From a virus, in IMG/VR virus record IMGVR_UViG_3300042486_001136, positions 1-40,207 of that record: 40,207 nucleotides of DNA. One strand, given 5' to 3'. The translations under genes and the position numbers were made by a program. Each line of letters begins with the position of its first letter. Position 1 is the stretch's first letter. Shown piece after piece: positions 9,780 through 39,542 of the stretch. Under the pieces are notes generated by a model. The model searched no databases and was not told the DNA's origin. It saw nothing but the letters and a program-made list of their open reading frames with translations.

Positions 9780-10379
9780 TTATATTGTCCACCAGTTGTT
9801 GTTGTTGTAAATTACATTAAGTGACTCATAAGGAGTCGTCATTGTAATTGCGGTAACACCATTTATTAGTGCTGGTGCTTCTGGCTGTACCGTTAATTTT
9901 CGATTACCAACAGGTGCTCCAAATTCTAATTTGATTGTGTGTTTGGTACCTGGAGGTACTGAGTTGAGCAGTGTAACCGTTGCTTTATCTTTTAGCTGTG
10001 CACCAATATAGCAATCGGTTTCACTAGCACAATAGTCTTCGGTAATAGTCACAGTATTGCACACACAGCCTTTGCCAGGTCCAGGTGGTCCAGGTGGTCC
10101 AGGTGGTCCAGGTGGTCCAGGTGGCCCTATTACAGGGCCTGCATTCACTATTGTACCATCAGTTAGCAGTAATAGTAAGTCCCCTGGATTATCAGTTACT
10201 TCTGCTCCGGCAACTCCTACACCTGCCGGCCCTGGCGGACCTGCGGGCCCTTCTGGTCCAGGCGTACCTGGGCCGCCGTTTACCACACTGTTTATAAACA
10301 AGTCACGGTCATCAATTGTTGGAGGAAGCGGCAAGTACGGTGGCATACTCCAGCCAAATGGCATTGTTTGATATTGCAT
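9780..10379 (-). CDS. Collagen-like fibre protein
   Basis: 199 aa. Two Gly-X-Y blocks, about residues 36-53 ([18 protein letters not shown]) and 84-103 ([18 protein letters not shown]), would form collagen triple helices. They flank a short non-collagen segment and are followed by a beta-rich C-terminal domain with three Cys after the second block, ending NNWWTI. Such proteins decorate phage heads or tails as trimeric fibres. RBS TTAAGGAAC precedes the ATG. The stop is eight bases before the Dps start. Confidence 0.85.
10079..10125. repeat. Tandem 9-bp repeat in the collagen-like gene
   Basis: About five copies of a 9-bp unit (CCAGGTGGT on the plus strand) encode GPP repeats. Near-perfect DNA identity rather than just protein periodicity points to recent slippage, so copy number may vary between relatives. 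Confidence 0.85.
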
Positions 10380-11797: not shown

Positions 11798-12490
11798 TTA
11801 GGCTAGTTTCCAGCCTTTATGGGTTTTTCTTACCTTATTTAAGACTCCACATAAGTGGCTCTTATTAAGATCATGCTGTCTAGCAAATTCGCTAAGATTA
11901 CTTATAGTGTATGCAGTGTTATTTGGTGATAGTATAATAGGGTACTTTATATTTTTATGTTTAGCGGTATTAATTGACCTATTATGTTTCAGACTAAGTA
12001 AACATTCATAGTCTTCTGAGTATAGTGAAGCTAACCATTTATGTGATTTACCTTTTGATATATCGCGAATAGTAGAAATTTCTACTCCAGTAGTTTTTGC
12101 AATATCCTTAAACGGAATGTCCAGTAAAAGATTTTTAAAAACTGTAAGTATTGTTTCTTTTGAGTACTTGGAATTAGGGTGTGCGTCTCCCTGTAGTCCA
12201 GTACCTCCGCCGCCCGCCTTTGAGTTAATATTAAATCCATTATTAACAGAATTAAAAATCTCAATAGCCTCATTTTCAAGCATATCTAAATTATCTTCTA
12301 AAGTACACTCTAGTAATACTTCTAAGTAAGGTACACCATATAATAAATAAGCTTGCTGCAATTTAATTGAGGCAATATTATTTGCTAGGTTGTATTTATG
12401 TTTAGTCAATCTTTCTTCTATTCTCAGAGATTGACCCACATAAACTTTATTAGTTCCATTAAATTTTAGTAAATAAATGCCTATAGTCAT
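11798..12490 (-). CDS. GIY-YIG homing endonuclease
   Basis: 230 aa from ATG at 12490; an upstream TTG at 12508 is possible, but AGGACA sits correctly before the ATG and the paralogue at 29713-30393 starts the same way. N-terminal GIY-YIG nuclease domain (GIYLLKFN ... KVYVGQSLRIEERL, with Asn/Glu further on), then NUMOD-type DNA-binding segments; the end (NLSEFARQHDLNKSHLCGVL, THKGWKLA) is the familiar intron-encoded-nuclease repeat. It is AT-rich compared with its neighbours, consistent with a mobile gene. It lies just downstream of the ribonucleotide reductase gene. Its promoter sits inside an inverted repeat whose distal arm covers its RBS. Confidence 0.9.
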   Translation of the reverse strand: MTIGIYLLKFNGTNKVYVGQSLRIEERLTKHKYNLANNIASIKLQQAYLLYGVPYLEVLLECTLEDNLDMLENEAIEIFNSVNNGFNINSKAGGGGTGLQGDAHPNSKYSKETILTVFKNLLLDIPFKDIAKTTGVEISTIRDISKGKSHKWLASLYSEDYECLLSLKHNRSINTAKHKNIKYPIILSPNNTAYTISNLSEFARQHDLNKSHLCGVLNKVRKTHKGWKLA

Positions 12491-12542
12491 AATATTGTGT
12501 CCTAACAAATATTTTATATTATACTATTTTGGACACAATATT
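12491..12542 (-). promoter_or_regulatory. Promoter nested in a 12-bp inverted repeat
   Basis: Minus strand TTGAAA (12546-12541), 17-base spacer, TATAAT (12523-12518). Perfect 12-bp arms AATATTGTGTCC (12542-12531) and GGACACAATATT (12502-12491) flank the -10 box; the distal arm contains the AGGACA ribosome binding site and ends at the start codon. Read-through RNA would fold and hide the RBS; RNA starting near 12511 keeps only one arm. Confidence 0.75.
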
Positions 12543-20147: not shown

Positions 20148-20789
20148 TTAACCTAGTTCTTTAACAGCTTCTTGAGCAGCGTCATCGCCTGCGTCGCCGT
20201 CGTCAGTGTTTGTGGTAATTTTTATCAGGGTTGCTAGTACTTCGGCTTCAGTTGGACGTGGGTACTTTTCGTCAATGGACTTGGCTTCGTCAGCCACAGC
20301 ACGTTCAGCATCAGTTAGCTTGCGTGGCTTGCAACGTAACACACTTAGATCATAGCTGATGTTAAAAGCCAGTGGGCCTGTTTTGGTACGCTTGAACACA
20401 ACATCCCAGCCGGTGTCTGGATCGGTTGGGTCACCCAAGTCTTCGGCTGCACTTACAATTTGCTCAAACAGTTTCTTTTTCAAGTTAAGTGCTTTGACTT
20501 TGCCGTCTTTGGGGTCAATACAGTTAACTGTGTACGACCATGAGCACTTCAAGTCTGGAAAGTAGGTAGGAACGTGATCGACTTCCAGATTGTCGAATTT
20601 TTCTTTGTCACGGCTAAAAGCCAAGCATTCAACTGGAATGTCTTTGTTGTTTGCACCCTTCAACCAGTAAATATAACGGGGCAATACGCCACCAATCAAT
20701 CTGACTGTGTTTTCGCCGTCTTTGTACTCAAAAGCCTCAACTTTGTTGGAAATTGCTTTGCCTTTGGTGTTTTTAAATGAAATTGCCAT
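20148..20789 (-). CDS. Single-stranded DNA-binding protein, gp32-like
   Basis: 213 aa. The N-terminal half (NTVRLIGGVLPRYIYWLKGA, VECLAFSRD, YFPDLKCSWSYTVNCID) resembles OB-fold phage SSBs of the gp32-like group, and it ends in an acidic tail (DDGDAGDDAAQEAVKELG) of the kind that recruits partner proteins. Position among gp46/gp47 and helicase genes fits. No Cys-rich zinc site like T4 gp32 is evident, so the exact family is uncertain. Confidence 0.72.
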   Translation of the reverse strand: MAISFKNTKGKAISNKVEAFEYKDGENTVRLIGGVLPRYIYWLKGANNKDIPVECLAFSRDKEKFDNLEVDHVPTYFPDLKCSWSYTVNCIDPKDGKVKALNLKKKLFEQIVSAAEDLGDPTDPDTGWDVVFKRTKTGPLAFNISYDLSVLRCKPRKLTDAERAVADEAKSIDEKYPRPTEAEVLATLIKITTNTDDGDAGDDAAQEAVKELG

Positions 20790-25518: not shown

Positions 25519-26372
25519 TATTTGTTTACATACTCTGCAATCGACCTGACATTTTCACGATCTAAATCGCCGGGGTCTGTGCCGTCTGGTAAGTCGATGA
25601 TTTCAACAACAAAGCCCTCTGCTTCAAGCACTGGCTTGAGTGCTTTTGCAGCACTGTTACCTGCCTCGTCCCCGTCAAAAAGCAAGTAGATGTGCGTGAT
25701 GCCTTGAGCTCGGAATGGTAACAGTTTTTGTTTTGTGTCATTTTGAAGAGTTTTAGTACCAAAAGCGCATACTGCGTTTTCGCAGCCATTGTCGTATAAG
25801 TTAAGCATATCAAATATGCCTTCCACCAATACCATTGACGAATAACCACTGGGTAGGTGTGCTGGAAACAGTGGCATTGTTACACCTTGTGGGTAGTTAA
25901 CATATCTGGGATTGCCAGCACTCATTGTGTGACGGCCAACAAATACCACTGTTTTTTGCGTAATATCACGAATGGGAAATACAATACGATCTTGTAGCTT
26001 TTCTACTTGATTGGTATAAAAAGCACCAAAGTGCTTGAGTGTTGCCGGGCTAATACCGCGAAACATTTTAGTCCAAGGTGTGTACCCTTGTGGCAAGTCC
26101 AGTTCACGTCCAAATGATTTTAGTGTGGCTAGCTTTTCTTTGAGTGCCGCAATCTTTACTGGAACCGGATTGGTAAAGACTCCGTAAAACTTGAAAAGGT
26201 TGGTTTTAAAACCACAAGCAAAACAGTGTGCAACTCCACTTACACGATCAACGCGAAAGCTGGGATTTGAGTCAGGATGTTCTGGGTTCAAGCACTTGAT
26301 CAAGTAGTCGCGACCACTGGATTGATAGCCTAGGCCATTCTTTTGAATTAGTTCTAGTACTGGGTCGCTCAT
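25518..26372 (-). CDS. DNA primase, DnaG type
   Basis: 284 aa from the ATG at 26372 (TAATG overlap with the helicase gene). Zinc-binding N-domain with Cys27, His32, Cys50 and Cys53 (CLNPEHPDSNPSFRV ... HCFACG), then a RNA polymerase-like core and a TOPRIM domain (VLVEGIFDMLNLYD, LLFDGDEAGNSAAK). Shorter than bacterial DnaG because the helicase-binding C-domain is missing. Makes RNA primers together with the adjacent helicase. Confidence 0.93.
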   Translation of the reverse strand: MSDPVLELIQKNGLGYQSSGRDYLIKCLNPEHPDSNPSFRVDRVSGVAHCFACGFKTNLFKFYGVFTNPVPVKIAALKEKLATLKSFGRELDLPQGYTPWTKMFRGISPATLKHFGAFYTNQVEKLQDRIVFPIRDITQKTVVFVGRHTMSAGNPRYVNYPQGVTMPLFPAHLPSGYSSMVLVEGIFDMLNLYDNGCENAVCAFGTKTLQNDTKQKLLPFRAQGITHIYLLFDGDEAGNSAAKALKPVLEAEGFVVEIIDLPDGTDPGDLDRENVRSIAEYVNK

Positions 26373-27760
26373 TATGCATTCCAAGGTAAATCTGCGCCAC
26401 TGTCATTAACTGCAACTGTTTCTTCTTGCGACTTTTTCACTCGCTTAACCGATTCTTTAGCAGCAGGCTTGTCCACACTCTGTGGCGAGATGCGTAGTGT
26501 GTCCCAGTCAATTGGGCATGTGAAAGCCATCTCCTTGCCACCACGAATCTTAGTTGTTTCGAAAGAAACCGCATTCGTTTCTTTATCATGCGCTTCCATT
26601 GTAAGCGCGATATCCGCTGCGTCCAAGATGCCTTTGGCAAATCTCGCCTCGCCGTCTTTGTCAATTTGATAAGGAGATACCATGACAATTTCGTATTTCC
26701 GGGCCAGGTTTTTGAGCTTCTTTGAGACTTCAATCTGTGGCTTCCAATCATACTGGTCGTTTCCTTCTAAGACAATTTGGTTCAAGTAGTCAACCACAGC
26801 AACTTTTAGCTTGTCACCAAACTTTGCTTTGGCTTTGCCGATGTGCAAGTCGATGCTGCTTAGGGTCAGGTCACGGTCATCAACAATAATCATTTGATTA
26901 TCTGCTTTTAACTGAAAGTTTCGTACTAGTGTTTCTTCAAACTTGAATCTGTCACGATGACGTAGGAACTCACTGATAGTTTCGTCAGCGCCTTCAAACA
27001 TACCAGCACGAGCTTTTACAACTGCCAGAACTTCAGTGTCAGTTAACTTGTGTTGCTTGAGATTTTGAAGATTAACATTGGCTAGAATAGCCAAGTTACG
27101 CTCCATAGTCTCTTTGGCAGTCATTTCAATACTGAAATAAATGCAACTGTTACCAGACTCATATTGATTAATAAAAAGATTGCTACAACTAATAGATTTG
27201 CCGGAGCCTCGTTTACCCCCAATGAGAATGAGTTCTTGGCGAGCAACGCCACCAAGCACACTGTCAAAACTGTTATTAAGGCCAAGATAAACACGTTCGC
27301 GCTCCAAGTCTTCGGGGTGGCTAAACATCATCATGTCAGCCATTGTAAACACCTTTTCAGATGTATGGGTTTTTTCTTCGATTGTTAGCGCAATTGTGGC
27401 TAAGTTTTCTTTTATTTCGTTTGTGTCGTAGAGTGGCAGTTTATCTACGAACTTATCTAGTAATTTTACCGTTTCACTCTGAGTGTACTGGTCGATTAGT
27501 GCGTCCAGTGCAACTTCGGCTGAAACGTCTGGTATCTCGGTTAACCGGAGAGTCGCCAGTGTTTTTGACGCCGGACCCTCCCTTAAGGTTAGTTCGAGTT
27601 CATCGAACGACGGAATAGCGCTGTACTTTTCATAGTACTTGTTAACCACGCTATACAAGGAAGAATACGCAGGATCTAAAAACACTAACTTGAGCTTGGC
27701 CCAGATATCTAGGTTACGTTCTGTTAATAATTTGTTTAAGACTACTGCTGATGTATCCAA
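26372..27760 (-). CDS. Replicative DNA helicase, DnaB-like
   Basis: 462 aa from TTG, with AGGG a few bases upstream and the preceding stop 2 bases away. N-terminal helical domain, then a RecA-fold ATPase with Walker A LIGGKRGSGKS (about 184-194), CIYFSIEM, KVAVVDYLNQI (Walker B) and MVSPYQIDKDGEARFAKGILDAAD. Unwinds the fork 5' to 3'; works with the primase encoded next. Confidence 0.93.
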   Translation of the reverse strand: MDTSAVVLNKLLTERNLDIWAKLKLVFLDPAYSSLYSVVNKYYEKYSAIPSFDELELTLREGPASKTLATLRLTEIPDVSAEVALDALIDQYTQSETVKLLDKFVDKLPLYDTNEIKENLATIALTIEEKTHTSEKVFTMADMMMFSHPEDLERERVYLGLNNSFDSVLGGVARQELILIGGKRGSGKSISCSNLFINQYESGNSCIYFSIEMTAKETMERNLAILANVNLQNLKQHKLTDTEVLAVVKARAGMFEGADETISEFLRHRDRFKFEETLVRNFQLKADNQMIIVDDRDLTLSSIDLHIGKAKAKFGDKLKVAVVDYLNQIVLEGNDQYDWKPQIEVSKKLKNLARKYEIVMVSPYQIDKDGEARFAKGILDAADIALTMEAHDKETNAVSFETTKIRGGKEMAFTCPIDWDTLRISPQSVDKPAAKESVKRVKKSQEETVAVNDSGADLPWNA

Positions 27761-28131: not shown

Positions 28132-28881
28132 TTAAGCTGCTGCTTTAGCTTCGGCTTTGGCTTTTTTAGCTGCACCATCATAGTCAGCAACTTTGATACC
28201 ACGGCGAGTCAGCAATGTACGCAGACCACGTTCTGTTTTGTCAACAGCAGCTGCAATTTCTGCAACTGTCATGGTGTGAATACGATCACCAAGGGCAACC
28301 ACCGGATCAACGGATTCTTTGGCATGAGATTCGCGCTGTGCTGGAATCTTGCTAATCTGACCTTTGCGTGTCAAGCTCAGGGCTTTACCACGAACACTGG
28401 CAACAGTCTTGTTGAGCTTGGCAGCGATATCTTCAATAAAGTTACCGGCATCAGCCATTTTCACAAAAGTGGCTTCTTCGGCTTCGGTATAAGTACGAGC
28501 CACTTCCACTTTTTCAGCTGGCTTTACACTGCCAGTTAGTTCCAGGGCCAGCAATTTGCCTTGGATTTGTTTTGCAGTGAACTTGCCGTCAGCAAAGTTT
28601 TCAGCAATTTCTTTGTAAGTCAAGTTACCTGCATTAGCACTCACGAAATCGGCAAGATCAGCGCCTTCGTCGGGTGTAAATGCACTGGTTTTTTCTTTTG
28701 CAAGACTAGCAACTTCACGGTCAAGTTGACGCAGTTTAGATGCAATACTGCGAGTAGTTTTACCCAGTTGTTCAGCAGCACGCTCAACGCTATCAACGCT
28801 AACGGGGCTTTCGCTTCCAACGATTTGCATCAGTTGGTCAACAGCTTCGTCAGACCAGTTTTTAGTAGCTTTTTCAGTCAT
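28132..28881 (-). CDS. DNA-binding protein with tandem helix-turn-helix modules
   Basis: 249 aa. At least three similar helical modules: about residues 8-55 (WSDEAVDQLM ... AAEQLGKTTRSIASKLRQL), 66-115 (FTPDEGADLADFV ... IAENFADGKFTAKQIQGKL) and 130-175 (YTEAEEATFVKMAD ... IAAKLNKTVASVRGKAL), with a fourth possible near 205-235 (TVAEIAAAVDKTERGLRTLL). Each ends in a recognition-helix-like segment, as in Myb/SANT- or resolvase-type folds. The C-terminus is Lys/Ala-rich. Probable regulator or DNA-organising protein. A smaller relative of the module occurs at 34529-34894. Confidence 0.7.
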   Translation of the reverse strand: MTEKATKNWSDEAVDQLMQIVGSESPVSVDSVERAAEQLGKTTRSIASKLRQLDREVASLAKEKTSAFTPDEGADLADFVSANAGNLTYKEIAENFADGKFTAKQIQGKLLALELTGSVKPAEKVEVARTYTEAEEATFVKMADAGNFIEDIAAKLNKTVASVRGKALSLTRKGQISKIPAQRESHAKESVDPVVALGDRIHTMTVAEIAAAVDKTERGLRTLLTRRGIKVADYDGAAKKAKAEAKAAA

Positions 28882-29641
28882 TTGTATTTTCTTTCAAGAA
28901 AGTATTTAGGTTTGTTATAATTGGGATGCCAAGTGATTCGGCTTTTTTGCGTTTTGTACTAGCCTTATCTTCTTCATCAACCAAATAGTCAGTGGTTTTA
29001 GTCACAGACTCTACTGCTCTGTATCCGGCAGCTTCCAGTGCTTGATAAGCATCTGCTTTGGTTTTGTAAGAAGATAGTTTTCCAGTGATACAAACAGTTT
29101 TAGAATTGTTGTTACTGATTGTATTGGAATTTCTATTAGACTTAAAAGAGAACGGCAAAAACTCTCGTAAGTCAGGGAAATCTGTTTGTAACCAACCAAC
29201 TAGGTTTTCGGTTACTTTGTCGCCTAAACCGGCTTGTTTGCAGGTTTCGTATGTGATTTGATCAATATGCTCAACCACTTCACAAATCTTTTTTGATGCT
29301 GTGCTGCCAACTAGGGTAATCGAGAAACTTGCTAATACTGTGGCTAAGTCAACAGCTTTGGCACGTTCAATTTCATCAAGTAGTTTTGCGGCAGTTTTTT
29401 CACTGCCCAAGGCTTCTGTTACAGCGTCTAGATCAAGATAGAACAGCTCAGTTAAATCTTGTAAGTCAAGCTTTTCTACTGTCTTTGGGCCCATGCCTTT
29501 GATGCCAAGGGTCTTACAAAAGTGCTCTAGTTTTTTACCCAGCTGTGCACCGCAAGCTGTGTTGCGGCAAAAGAGTTGGTCATTGACCAATTCAAGTGTG
29601 TAGCTACAGCAGGGGCAAACGGTTGGGATTTCGATCTTCAT
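28874..29641 (-). CDS. ligA: NAD+-dependent DNA ligase, C-terminal half (Zn finger, HhH, BRCT)
   Basis: 255 aa. A Cys4 zinc finger opens the protein (Cys9, Cys12, Cys25, Cys30; CPCC ... CRNTACGAQ), then helix-hairpin-helix repeats (LGIKGMGPKTVEKL and others) and a BRCT domain (TVCITGKLSSYKTKADAYQALE, GIPIIT). This is exactly the second half of bacterial LigA; the adenylation and OB parts are encoded separately at 30453-31403. It has its own promoter (29667-29695). The last bases overlap the multi-HTH gene. Confidence 0.92.
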   Translation of the reverse strand: MKIEIPTVCPCCSYTLELVNDQLFCRNTACGAQLGKKLEHFCKTLGIKGMGPKTVEKLDLQDLTELFYLDLDAVTEALGSEKTAAKLLDEIERAKAVDLATVLASFSITLVGSTASKKICEVVEHIDQITYETCKQAGLGDKVTENLVGWLQTDFPDLREFLPFSFKSNRNSNTISNNNSKTVCITGKLSSYKTKADAYQALEAAGYRAVESVTKTTDYLVDEEDKASTKRKKAESLGIPIITNLNTFLKENTND

Positions 29642-29712: not shown

Positions 29713-30393
29713 TTAAGCTAATGTCCAGCCTTTGTGATGGTTTCTAGTACCTTTTAAAACTTCCGTGAGTTTTGGTTGTAGTAGTCCGTGTTCTTTGGCA
29801 AAATTTGTAACGTGAGTAACTTCATAGACTTTGCCTTCTGGTGATTTTATGGAAGGGTATTGCTTGCCGTAATAGTAAGGTAACTCTTGTTTTATTCGTA
29901 TCAGCTCTGCATATTCGTTAGGACATACTTCTGATAGCCAGCAGTGGCTTTCTAAGGCAGCTATGTGCCTTATTGTATATATAGATATACCTGTTATTTC
30001 CTCTATTTCACGCTTACTTAATGTAGGAGCTTTCTGTATTAATAATCGTAATACTGAAATATACTGCTCATTAGTATACTTTGCAGTACCTGATCTTTCT
30101 CCAAACATAATGGGATTACCAGACTCACTAAGAGTATTAAATCCGTTATTTACGGAGTCAAATATTTCTATAGCTTCTTTTTCAGTACTATTTAGAGCAG
30201 CTATGTTAGCTTCTACCAATAGCTCTAGATTAGGCATTCCGTAGGTATTAAATGCTTGCTGTAATTTAGGTGCAGCTGCATTTCTATTAAAAGCACTTTT
30301 GTGCTTAATAAATCTATCCTCTATATCCAAGGACTGACCTATATAAACCTTATTTGTATAATTAAATCTTAACACATAAATTCCAGTAGTCAT
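29713..30393 (-). CDS. GIY-YIG homing endonuclease between ligase halves
   Basis: 226 aa, a paralogue of the enzyme at 11798-12490. GIY-YIG domain at the start (GIYVLRFNYTNKVYIGQSLDIEDR), middle helical linker with Glu/Asn (EKEAIEIFDSVNNGFNTL) and DNA-binding modules towards the end (YEVTHVTNFAKEHGLLQPK, HHKGWTLA). It is AT-rich relative to the ligase genes. It occupies the exact break between OB fold and zinc finger of LigA, consistent with insertion of a free-standing homing endonuclease that cleaves intact ligase genes. Its promoter lies inside a short inverted repeat that includes the RBS. Confidence 0.9.
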   Translation of the reverse strand: MTTGIYVLRFNYTNKVYIGQSLDIEDRFIKHKSAFNRNAAAPKLQQAFNTYGMPNLELLVEANIAALNSTEKEAIEIFDSVNNGFNTLSESGNPIMFGERSGTAKYTNEQYISVLRLLIQKAPTLSKREIEEITGISIYTIRHIAALESHCWLSEVCPNEYAELIRIKQELPYYYGKQYPSIKSPEGKVYEVTHVTNFAKEHGLLQPKLTEVLKGTRNHHKGWTLA

Positions 30394-30452: not shown

Positions 30453-31403
30453 TTATGCATCAACTTTATGTAAAATACACGGAATAATCATGCCTGCGCG
30501 AATAACGGCCACGGTGTCGCCAATACGCAAGTCTAGCATTTGAATAAAACCAGGATTATTAAGAGTAGCACGACTGACGAGAGCATCGCCAATAAGCACA
30601 GGTTCAAGAATTGCCACTGGGCTAACTTTGCCACTCTTGCCGACTTGCCACTCAACTGCAACAAGTTTGGTTTCAACGTGGGCTGCTCGTTCTTTTTTAG
30701 CATACGCACCGCGCGGATGCTTGGCCGTATACCCCATCTCGTAGAACTGACTATTGTTATTGACTCGGAAGACAACACCATCGCACGGGAATATTTTGTC
30801 GAGATCTGGTTCATTGATTACTCCAAAACCTGCCAGTTGCAGTGCTGCCAAGTCTGCGTTAAATGTTTCGTGTAGGCTAGGCTGAACGCCATAGGCAAAG
30901 AAACTCAGTGCTCGTGATTGAAATTCCGACACATCTTTTAAGTTAAGTGCGCCTGCTGCATAGTTGCGAGCATTTTCAATATTGAGTGGAGCCACAATCT
31001 CGCCAGTGATCTGGTAAACGCCTGGCCACGGCACAGTTTGTGGCACAATAGGATTGCCCAAGAACTTGTCAGTTACAATCTGACCTTCTACACCATCCCC
31101 ACGGGTAAGAACTCGAACAAGATTACCGTCAACATAAAGTAAGCTAAGAGCTGCCCCATCAAGCTTAATGCTTGTAGCAACCGATCTAATACCTTGGAGT
31201 GGTTGGGTACCTTCATCTTCGTAATACTTTTGCAGTGAATACATTTGATACAAGTGACGCTCAGTTTTTGAGTTCTGCTTAGCGCCCACAGCATTATAGC
31301 CTACTGACGCAGCAAGCGCATCAAACTGTGCGTCAGTGATAAATGGGCTACCTGCGTAATACGCGGCTGAAGCTGAGTCGAGATATTGTGTGATTTTGTT
31401 CAT
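30453..31403 (-). CDS. ligA: NAD+-dependent DNA ligase, N-terminal half (adenylation and OB domains)
   Basis: 316 aa. A short Ia-like part (YYAGSPFITDAQFDAL), then the adenylation domain with the nucleophile Lys80 in IKLDGAALSLLY, TRGDGVEGQIVTD, TGEIVAP and CDGVVFRVNN, and an OB fold (VGKSGKVSPVAILEPVLI, RATLNNPGF, RIGDTVAVIRAGMIIPCIL). It stops precisely where the zinc finger should start; that part is encoded at 28874-29641. The two products together cover a complete LigA. The -10 box lies only seven bases before the ATG, suggesting a leaderless mRNA. Confidence 0.93.
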   Translation of the reverse strand: MNKITQYLDSASAAYYAGSPFITDAQFDALAASVGYNAVGAKQNSKTERHLYQMYSLQKYYEDEGTQPLQGIRSVATSIKLDGAALSLLYVDGNLVRVLTRGDGVEGQIVTDKFLGNPIVPQTVPWPGVYQITGEIVAPLNIENARNYAAGALNLKDVSEFQSRALSFFAYGVQPSLHETFNADLAALQLAGFGVINEPDLDKIFPCDGVVFRVNNNSQFYEMGYTAKHPRGAYAKKERAAHVETKLVAVEWQVGKSGKVSPVAILEPVLIGDALVSRATLNNPGFIQMLDLRIGDTVAVIRAGMIIPCILHKVDA

Positions 31404-32518: not shown

Positions 32519-33316
32519 TTACTTGTTCATCATCAGTGCTGTGAAGTTGCTGGGCACAACAATAGTCTGTACTTTGCCGTTCTTGATACCTTCTGAGATA
32601 TTCAACATGGCTTGTGCTTCCATAAACTTGATAGAACTACCACTGTTGTTGGCCAGTGCTGCCATACGGCGGCTTTCAGCTTCAGCAGTTTTAACTTCAA
32701 CTTCTTTTTGCTTCAATTCGTTCTTGCTTCGAACCAGAGCATTAGCACTTTCAACAACTGTGTCACTTGGAACCACGTTACGAATCATAACTTGACTAAT
32801 CATGATTGCGCCGTCCAACTTTTCTTCGGCAAGGTTGCGAACGATTTCTTCTTGGATGAATCGTTCCATTTCATTACGCTTGTCTGCCATATCCAGTGCT
32901 TCGTACTTGCGAGCTGCCTTGTAGATAGCGTTACGAGCATTTTGAACAATGTAGTTGTACATCACATAAGTATCACCTTTGAACTCAGCGTGGAAGCTTT
33001 TGTTCTTGGTTGAGTACAGTTCAGAAACTTGTTGGGGATTGATGTTGTAGACAACCACAGCATCCAAGTCTTTCATGGTAGAATTGTCAGCAGCCACTGG
33101 AGTCATGTTATCCATAGTAACATTAACATCTTTGATGGGAAAGGTCAATACCGTGCCAACAAGAGTTTGGTTAAAACTGCCGGGCAACAGTTCACCACTT
33201 TGCACTTGTTTGTCAAAACCAACGCGCACGCCGACTTCGCCGGTTTCGATACGAGTACAGCCAGTAGCAGCAACAATAACAGCAGAAAGAGCAAGAAGTT
33301 TAAAAGTATTTTTCAT
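32519..33316 (-). CDS. SPFH/prohibitin-domain lipoprotein
   Basis: 265 aa. Signal peptide with lipobox VAATGC (Cys20), then an SPFH domain (ETGEVGVRVGFDKQVQSGEL, LTFPIKDVNVTMDNMT, DLDAVVVYNINP) and the following helical coiled-coil region with KLDGAIMISQVMIRNVVPSD and AEAESRRMAALANN, as in HflC/prohibitins. It would form oligomeric rings at the periplasmic side of the membrane. HflKC modulates FtsH proteolysis in bacteria; a lipid-anchored phage version might interfere with host protease control or membrane integrity, which is inference. Confidence 0.85.
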   Translation of the reverse strand: MKNTFKLLALSAVIVAATGCTRIETGEVGVRVGFDKQVQSGELLPGSFNQTLVGTVLTFPIKDVNVTMDNMTPVAADNSTMKDLDAVVVYNINPQQVSELYSTKNKSFHAEFKGDTYVMYNYIVQNARNAIYKAARKYEALDMADKRNEMERFIQEEIVRNLAEEKLDGAIMISQVMIRNVVPSDTVVESANALVRSKNELKQKEVEVKTAEAESRRMAALANNSGSSIKFMEAQAMLNISEGIKNGKVQTIVVPSNFTALMMNK

Positions 33317-38286: not shown

Positions 38287-38362
38287 TGGTGCGGGCTACA
38301 GGGTTCGAACCTGCGACATCCTCGTTGGCAACGAGGTGCTCTACCAACTGAGCTAAGCACGC
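38287..38362 (-). tRNA. tRNA-Gly(GCC)
   Basis: 76 nt with encoded CCA: acceptor GCGTGCT/AGCCCGC (one mismatch), D arm AGCTCAGTTGGTAGAGC, anticodon stem CCTCG/CGAGG, loop TTGCCAA (anticodon GCC), T arm GCAGG TTCGAAC CCTGT. Confidence 0.92.
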
Positions 38363-38363
38363 A

Positions 38364-38687
38364 TTAAAATGGGATATCGTCATCAAAACTGGTATCGTAA
38401 TCTTGACGACTGGCAATTTCTGCCAAGTATTCATATTTTTGGCCGTCCATGTAGGGGGCAACTTCTTCAGCTTGGTGAATTGTCCAACGAGCAAAACTAG
38501 CTTGTTCTTGTATTAATTCAATGGCTTCTGGCTGAAATTTAACATAACCGGACTTTTCTGCCCATATTAAGTATTCGTAGTGATCTTGGGCTACATCACA
38601 GATTCTGCATCCGGCTAGCTTACCAAATGTAATTGTGTCTGTAATACCCAGTTTAGGGTTCTTGAGCTTACTAAAACCAATAGCCAT
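38364..38687 (-). CDS. Small protein with SSB-type C-terminal peptide (DDDIPF)
   Basis: 107 aa from the ATG at 38687 (GGAGG eight bases upstream). The N-half (ITFGKLAGCRICDVAQDHYEYLIW) resembles the small FGKYKGK-type domain found at exonuclease C-termini; a helical middle follows. It ends SFDDDIPF, which is the invariant C-terminal tip of bacterial SSB (DFDDDIPF in E. coli) that docks on RecO, PriA, RecQ, Pol III chi and others. No SSB OB fold is present. It may recruit or block host SSB partners. Confidence 0.7.
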   Translation of the reverse strand: MAIGFSKLKNPKLGITDTITFGKLAGCRICDVAQDHYEYLIWAEKSGYVKFQPEAIELIQEQASFARWTIHQAEEVAPYMDGQKYEYLAEIASRQDYDTSFDDDIPF

Positions 38688-38845
38688 TACCAGTGCCTCC
38701 ACACACCTGCTACAATAAAGCAATTTGTGCCTATATAGCTGAGTACAATTATGGTTCGGATTATGGCTACCACGTCAGCCTCACAGTTATTTTTTCCGGC
38801 TTTGGCGCCGAGGGCATTTGCCCAAAGTGTCCAAACTTTTTTCAT
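38687..38845 (-). CDS. Small membrane protein (52 aa)
   Basis: 52 aa: MKKVWTLWANALGAKAGKNN, then EADVVAIIRTIIVLSYIGTN and the end FIVAGVWRHW; one transmembrane helix (about 27-47). The stop overlaps the next ATG (TAATG). It resembles short phage proteins with EADxVAxIRTxIV and a C-terminal RHW that I recall in other phages. Function unknown. Confidence 0.7.
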   Translation of the reverse strand: MKKVWTLWANALGAKAGKNNCEADVVAIIRTIIVLSYIGTNCFIVAGVWRHW

Positions 38846-38948: not shown

Positions 38949-39542
38949 TTATTCTTTGGCTGCGTCAGTTTCCTGTGCGCGAGCTGCCTGCAACTTTTCC
39001 AGTCGCTGTGCAACTTCGTCACTGGTCATCCAAATGTCTTTGTTGTGCAACATGCTGGAAATTTCTTCACTGGTTAAAAAGTCTTTGTATACCGCACTCA
39101 TAAAGTTTTCAGACCAACGACGTTCAAATTGCAGTTGATCGTACATTTCACCGCCTTTGCCAAATGTTCCAGCACTATAGTTGTGAAACATAAAAAGACT
39201 GTGCGGTGTGATTTCGTGTGCATGACCGTGTAAGAAGATCATGGTGGCTGCACTCATGCAAGCGCCTTCAACACTGGTAACAATAGTTGCTTCTGTGTCC
39301 GACATTACTCGCAAGAACTGTAGTGTGGTATACAGGTCACCACCAGGCGAGTTGATATAAATACGAATAGTATCTACTTCGGATGCATTGCGAATGCAAT
39401 CAAACCACTCAATGTATTCTTCAGCATCTAGCACAGGGCCGCTTAGGTAAAACTCATGAAGCTGTGCAACTGGCTTTGAAAAGCTATTTGTGTACTTTTC
39501 AGGTTGAAACAATTTAGGGTCGAGATAATTGTCTTTGTTCAT
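38949..39542 (-). CDS. ClpP-family serine protease
   Basis: 197 aa. ClpP/crotonase fold with the catalytic triad: Ser97 in EGACMSAATMIF, His120 in SLFMFHNYSAG, Asp169 in NKDIWMTSDE, nearly the E. coli numbering (S97, H122, D171); oxyanion region NSPGGDLYTTLQFL. Length equals true ClpP. RBS AAAGGAAC precedes the ATG, directly downstream of the tmRNA. ClpP-like proteins in phages usually mature heads, but no capsid gene is nearby and the neighbour is a tagging RNA, so degradation of tagged proteins is a real alternative. It would need a host ClpX/ClpA. Confidence 0.9.
   Translation of the reverse strand: MNKDNYLDPKLFQPEKYTNSFSKPVAQLHEFYLSGPVLDAEEYIEWFDCIRNASEVDTIRIYINSPGGDLYTTLQFLRVMSDTEATIVTSVEGACMSAATMIFLHGHAHEITPHSLFMFHNYSAGTFGKGGEMYDQLQFERRWSENFMSAVYKDFLTSEEISSMLHNKDIWMTSDEVAQRLEKLQAARAQETDAAKE

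Follow-up and report, generated by a model that had tools for sequence, protein, structure and literature searches.

Why should a small phage protein that, unlike bacterial SSB, has no recognisable OB fold end in six residues (DDDIPF) identical to the tip of SSB? The question arises from the window analysed here, the whole stretch of 40,207 nucleotides of viral DNA that makes up positions 1 to 40,207 of IMG/VR record IMGVR_UViG_3300042486_001136, in which a first-pass annotation, made from the letters alone, had pointed out such a protein at 38364-38687. Genome maintenance in bacteria has its central docking point in the SSB tip. Bacterial SSB consists of a folded domain, a disordered linker of low conservation and a conserved tip to which about 20 proteins bind; these contacts are eliminated when the terminal Phe is lost and weakened by a Pro-to-Ser change, and E. 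coli does not survive removal of the Phe (PMC10164576).

The open reading frame was confirmed on the minus strand and encodes a protein of 107 aa, MAIGFSKLKNPKLGITDTITFGKLAGCRICDVAQDHYEYLIWAEKSGYVKFQPEAIELIQEQASFARWTIHQAEEVAPYMDGQKYEYLAEIASRQDYDTSFDDDIPF, which ends in TSFDDDIPF and is directly followed by TAA (Table 1). The tRNA-Gly gene lies at the same position beside the tip-protein gene in many relatives. In a synteny comparison the ClpP-like gene was found in the neighbourhood in 23/23 loci, the other neighbours were also kept (19-22 of 23 loci), and the 52-aa ORF at the start of the gene was present in 7/23. The constant ClpP-like neighbour hints at other roles for the gene. Phage ClpP genes related to the one in the window are widespread, being found in 1822 INPHARED records.

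Table 1. Positions of the tip-protein gene, its parts, its neighbours and the phage SSB gene in the window.
Feature	Position	Strand	Basis
Small protein with SSB-like tip, CDS	38364..38687	-	ORF; 107 codons plus TAA
Ribosome-binding site GGAGG, 8 nt before the ATG of the tip-protein gene	38696..38700	-	Sequence
Core module of the tip protein, residues 19-43 (ITFGKLAGCRICDVAQDHYEYLIWA region), putative ExoX-like_C / QSregVF_b relative	38559..38633	-	Sub-cut-off Pfam, AF2, BFVD
Variable linker, about residues 77-101	38385..38459	-	Member lengths differ; pN/pS 0.68
SSB-like tip DDDIPF, residues 102-107	38367..38384	-	Conservation in family; pN/pS 0.10
ClpP-like protease gene, upstream of the tip-protein gene, same strand	38949..39542	-	PF00574 E 9e-13; synteny
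52-aa ORF; its stop overlaps the ATG of the tip-protein gene (TAATG)	38687..38845	-	ORF list; synteny
tRNA-Gly(GCC), one base downstream of the tip-protein gene	38287..38362	-	ARAGORN
Phage's own SSB (T5 D11-like / gp32-like), ends KELG	20148..20789	-	tblastn to D11/SSB of T5-like phages

Two scans of the viral contigs of IMG/VR yielded 33 loci besides the window, representing 27 distinct proteins of 86-110 aa; no homologues were found in 84,980 prokaryote genomes (GTDB) or among the isolated phages of INPHARED. Conservation of the terminal Phe in homologues had been proposed beforehand as a check on the resemblance to SSB, and it held: the consensus of the 27 proteins is a mostly acidic stretch followed by D, then V (18), I (8) or L (1), then P, and finally F (26) or Y (1), with the D and the P invariant, and loss of the terminal IPF was not observed. 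The members keeping this tip share 40-90% identity. The linker aligns poorly and varies in sequence and length, so that the family has an SSB-type D-D-[IVL]-P-F C-terminus at its extreme end after a variable linker, with the acidic, hydrophobic, Pro and terminal Phe positions in the same order as in SSB; the hydrophobic position is more often V than I, unlike the DDDIPF of SSB. Synonymous codons in the tip are varied (CCA, CCC and CCT for P, and all four codons for V). Pairwise counts on the related sequences, which are descriptive, gave a pN/pS of 0.10 over the final five codons, 0.24 in the core columns and 0.68 in the linker, making the tip the best-kept part of the protein. With the residue frequencies of this phage, the chance of a C-terminal [DE][DE][ILV]PF is about 6e-6 per protein and about 4e-4 for 60 genes. 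On this comparative evidence, the tip is held by selection at the protein level.

The N-terminal half, which reads FGKLAGCRICDV, had been described as looking like an FGKYKGK-type module often linked to exonucleases. A resemblance to the ExoX-like_C (PF20600) and QSregVF_b (PF12843) families was indeed detected, but below the cut-offs, and no exonuclease is attached. The window protein scored 13.1 bits against ExoX-like_C, and the best score in the contig searches was 18.9 bits (E 0.0035 for this contig and 1.6e-4 for a relative, both below the cut-off), the gathering cut-off being 26.5 bits; against QSregVF_b, the window protein and its nearest relative reached 15.8 and 18.3 bits, below the gathering cut-off of 22 bits. 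Each of the two families was matched by 16/27 members at E up to 1, with best values of 8e-4 and 2e-3, respectively. The core shares with them the pattern FGK-x-x-G ... D-V ... Y ... L-I-W, but differs in having its own invariant CR-x-CD and a nearly invariant DHYEYLIW. In the AF2 model pLDDT is about 84 over residues 11-60, with the linker and tail at about 50. The structural matches in BFVD were phage proteins without names, with E between 2e-5 and 1e-3 (2e-5, 9e-4); weaker neighbours were a protein named QSregVF (E 0.02) and one named ExoX-like_C (E 0.08). A search for relatives of solved structure gave none by sequence and no credible PDB match by Foldseek, where rows for ADP-ribose pyrophosphatase (Z up to 3.4, rmsd over 4 A) were not credible. 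The core is thus plausibly a relative of the ExoX-like_C/QSregVF_b module, lying below the threshold for membership in either family.

The protein had also been said to lack an OB fold, which is consistent with our scans: no SSB or OB domain of Pfam was matched by the window protein at E up to 10 or by the 27 members at E up to 1. We therefore rejected a distant SSB identity, a PHROG SSB match in two members (E 0.075) not being credible. By membership the protein is not an SSB; judged from its C-terminus, its mode of action is probably that of an SSB tip.

The phage encodes an SSB of its own, whose match to the gp32 family of Pfam (6.7e-4) lies below the cut-off. T5 D11 SSB has relatives in T5-like phages, and the D11-like SSB of the window has an EAVKELG-like end without the PF tip. 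The first-pass annotation was correct that this protein ends differently, in KELG; in the 26 related contigs where the SSB was found, its tail was of the EAVK[ED]L type and never ended in PF. The phage SSB shares its first seven residues, MAISFKN, with several homologues of the tip protein, with no covariation by eye.

By its T5-type replication genes, the phage is T5-like (Demerecviridae-related). Its family A polymerase is 50% identical over 99% to those of Vibrio T5-like phages, and the gene order of the replication block is that of Vibrio phage VPT02. As in VPT02, the NAD-type DNA ligase is in two genes; between them is an ORF that looks by eye like a GIY-YIG homing endonuclease (28874-29641, 29713-30393 and 30453-31403 for the three, minus strand), and a similar ORF lies at 11798-12508. 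The window also encodes a collagen-like protein with Gly-Pro-Pro repeats (9780-10379, minus strand) and an SPFH/Band 7 domain protein whose start resembles a signal peptide (32519-33316, minus strand; PF01145, 3.8e-17). No acidic PF terminus was found in four T5-like reference phages (T5, VPT02, AAS21 and Thalassa), two pattern matches in Thalassa being followed by TGG and not by a stop codon.

Several relatives carry a tmRNA upstream of the ClpP-like gene, of the permuted betaproteobacterial type in L036 (6754-7146) and also seen in L031, L033, L037, L040, L052, L053, L057 and L059; the relatives' tmRNA scores as Rfam beta_tmRNA and tmRNA_permuted, and its tags are, for example, ANDQVYALAA. 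Because this is the permuted betaproteobacterial class, it suggests a betaproteobacterial host. DDDIPF is the expected SSB tip in proteobacterial hosts.

When 30 related contigs were searched for the codon pattern D/E-D-x-P-[FY]-stop, 39 matches were obtained, 29 of which were the gene described above and 10 a second gene, with no other family. In these phages a distance of about 21-28 kb separates the two tip genes; the second is preceded by Shine-Dalgarno-like sequences and occurs in 15/30 contigs, including the nearest sibling of the window; in the window itself it would fall past the end of the record, and it is therefore not part of it. A wider scan gave 34 loci. The gene is represented in L087-L111 and L514-L547 (e.g. 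L111:1498-1629, minus strand). The encoded protein of 43-44 aa (for example MTDSEFFAQIQDDWFHEFAGAERHEIFVCTNPQIENFEFDDVPF) is unrelated to the first, ends in FDDVPF or LDVPF, and is modelled by AF2 as a single helix (residues 2-28) followed by a loose tail. Among 24 distinct sequences from the wider scan 21 end in PF, one in PY and two in PQ, and a further member, L102, ends in PL. The last four codons have a pN/pS of 0.09 versus 0.64 for the rest. The PQ, PY and PL variants, together with the Tyr-ended member of the first family, would be poor SSB tips. A protein encoded near this gene seemed by eye to be DnaQ exonuclease-like, but no such Pfam match was found. The second tip carrier in the relatives is a new observation and strengthens the plausible interpretation that the tip serves SSB-type docking.

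The same ending is found in viral proteins at large. In a census of viral contigs at least 354 proteins ended in DDD[IV]PF, at least 97 of which matched E. coli SSB in a single-query search; many others look by eye like members of further ssDNA-binding families, and the remaining carriers include proteins that resemble helicases, a group that resembles primases and a family with members of about 75 aa. The last of these, unrelated to the tip proteins described here (L124, L133, L139, L159 and L187), had no Pfam match for the one member scanned. The tip can thus be carried by a variety of phage replication proteins, and a small carrier that is not an SSB is unusual but not unique. Tail-only matches of the family profile in this census were due to the tail and not to the core, and L142, an unassigned viral protein that combines a GKFQG stretch with a DDDIPF tail and seemed by eye to carry an ExoX-like_C stretch, was discarded because neither the whole protein nor the fragment had a Pfam match. 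A different terminal peptide, [DE]LPW followed in most members by no more than two residues, was seen on the DnaB-like helicase of the window (26372-27760, minus strand; DLPWNA) and on a 337-aa protein of a relative (L116:10636-11649; ELPWDA); most relatives retain an LPW close to the C-terminus, and the preceding linker varies. No description of SSB-tip mimicry by non-SSB phage proteins was found in the literature searched, the coverage of which was incomplete.

The protein thus has two parts, a folded core of about 75 residues, putatively related to ExoX-like_C, and a freely varying linker that ends in a copy of the SSB tip. Since the linker-tip layout and the critical residues are as in SSB, we infer docking to SSB-interacting proteins: it is probably a small docking protein whose tip occupies the SSB-tip pockets of enzymes that maintain the host genome, for example RecQ, PriA, RecO, ExoI, chi, RecG or UDG. 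As such a tip is absent from the SSB of the phage itself, this protein and the second tip protein of 43-44 aa would supply the SSB tip in trans. The effect could run in either of two directions, hijacking and blocking having both been suggested in the first-pass annotation. Host enzymes may be brought to phage DNA, the core holding phage DNA or a phage protein, or the tip may compete with host SSB for its partner enzymes.

The main rival explanation is that the tip docks on a phage-encoded protein, such as the family A DNA polymerase, a recombinase or another part of the replisome, as the HK620 SSB does with Sak4 and as T7 gp2.5 does with T7 replication proteins; the acidic-aromatic tail of gp2.5 serves T7's own replication proteins. 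The tip shares with the tails of gp2.5 and HK620 SSB (NDYPPF) the form of an acidic, aromatic-ended phage C-terminus that docks replication or recombination partners, but unlike them it is of the bacterial DDIPF type and stands on a protein that is not an SSB. Phage SSB tails are known to bind phage partners (PMC5928155), the phage has a family A polymerase, and the [DE]LPW ends on its helicase and on the relatives' 337-aa protein make docking by terminal peptides within the replisome plausible. However, the PF tip is missing from the phage SSB, where a tip serving the phage's own replisome would naturally be carried, and T5 and three relatives, with a similar replisome, are without any acidic PF-tip protein; a weaker point is that in the PF families nothing follows the aromatic residue, whereas further residues after W are allowed in the LPW peptides, so that the two look like different docking modes. 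We consider a phage-encoded partner unlikely. It is somewhat less unlikely, though still doubtful, that the protein is a decoy which occupies the same pockets and blocks host SSB partners (nucleases such as ExoI and RecJ, UDG, or SSB-linked defence), and this is a branch of docking to host enzymes, with which its probability overlaps. The small size would suit a decoy, as would two unrelated carriers in one phage, the second having little beyond a 27-residue helix and the tip and so suiting a competitor peptide; on the other hand, a strongly conserved core with invariant residues exceeds what a decoy needs, and blocking would require a high copy number, since a single SSB tip binds only at a micromolar level (3-4 uM for RecG, PMC10164576).

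The neighbourhood raises a minor rival, in which the protein is an adaptor for a phage- or host-encoded Clp protease with an SspB-like layout of folded domain, linker and terminal docking peptide. The ClpP-like gene is near in every locus compared and in many relatives the tmRNA is close to it, but the other neighbours are conserved too, DDxPF is not known to resemble Clp docking motifs, and the second tip gene lies far off and not beside clpP, which leaves this role quite improbable. That the C-terminus arose by chance, or was inherited without function, is favoured by nothing more than the small size of the protein; the conservation among relatives, the low pN/pS of the tip, the rarity of the motif and a second family with the tip rule it out, and we give it a negligible probability.

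Docking to the SSB-interacting proteins of the host therefore remains our preferred reading, and it leads to a broader and more tentative proposal, which may possibly hold: in a lineage of T5-like phages the SSB docking tip would have been split from the DNA-binding fold and transferred to two small proteins unrelated to each other. Coating of the DNA would then be left to the phage SSB, and the tails, acting in trans, would determine which of the host's enzymes for repair and replication reach phage DNA or are kept away from it. If this is true, phages manipulate the SSB hub as a class, and tip-only phage proteins would be ready-made probes or inhibitors of that hub.
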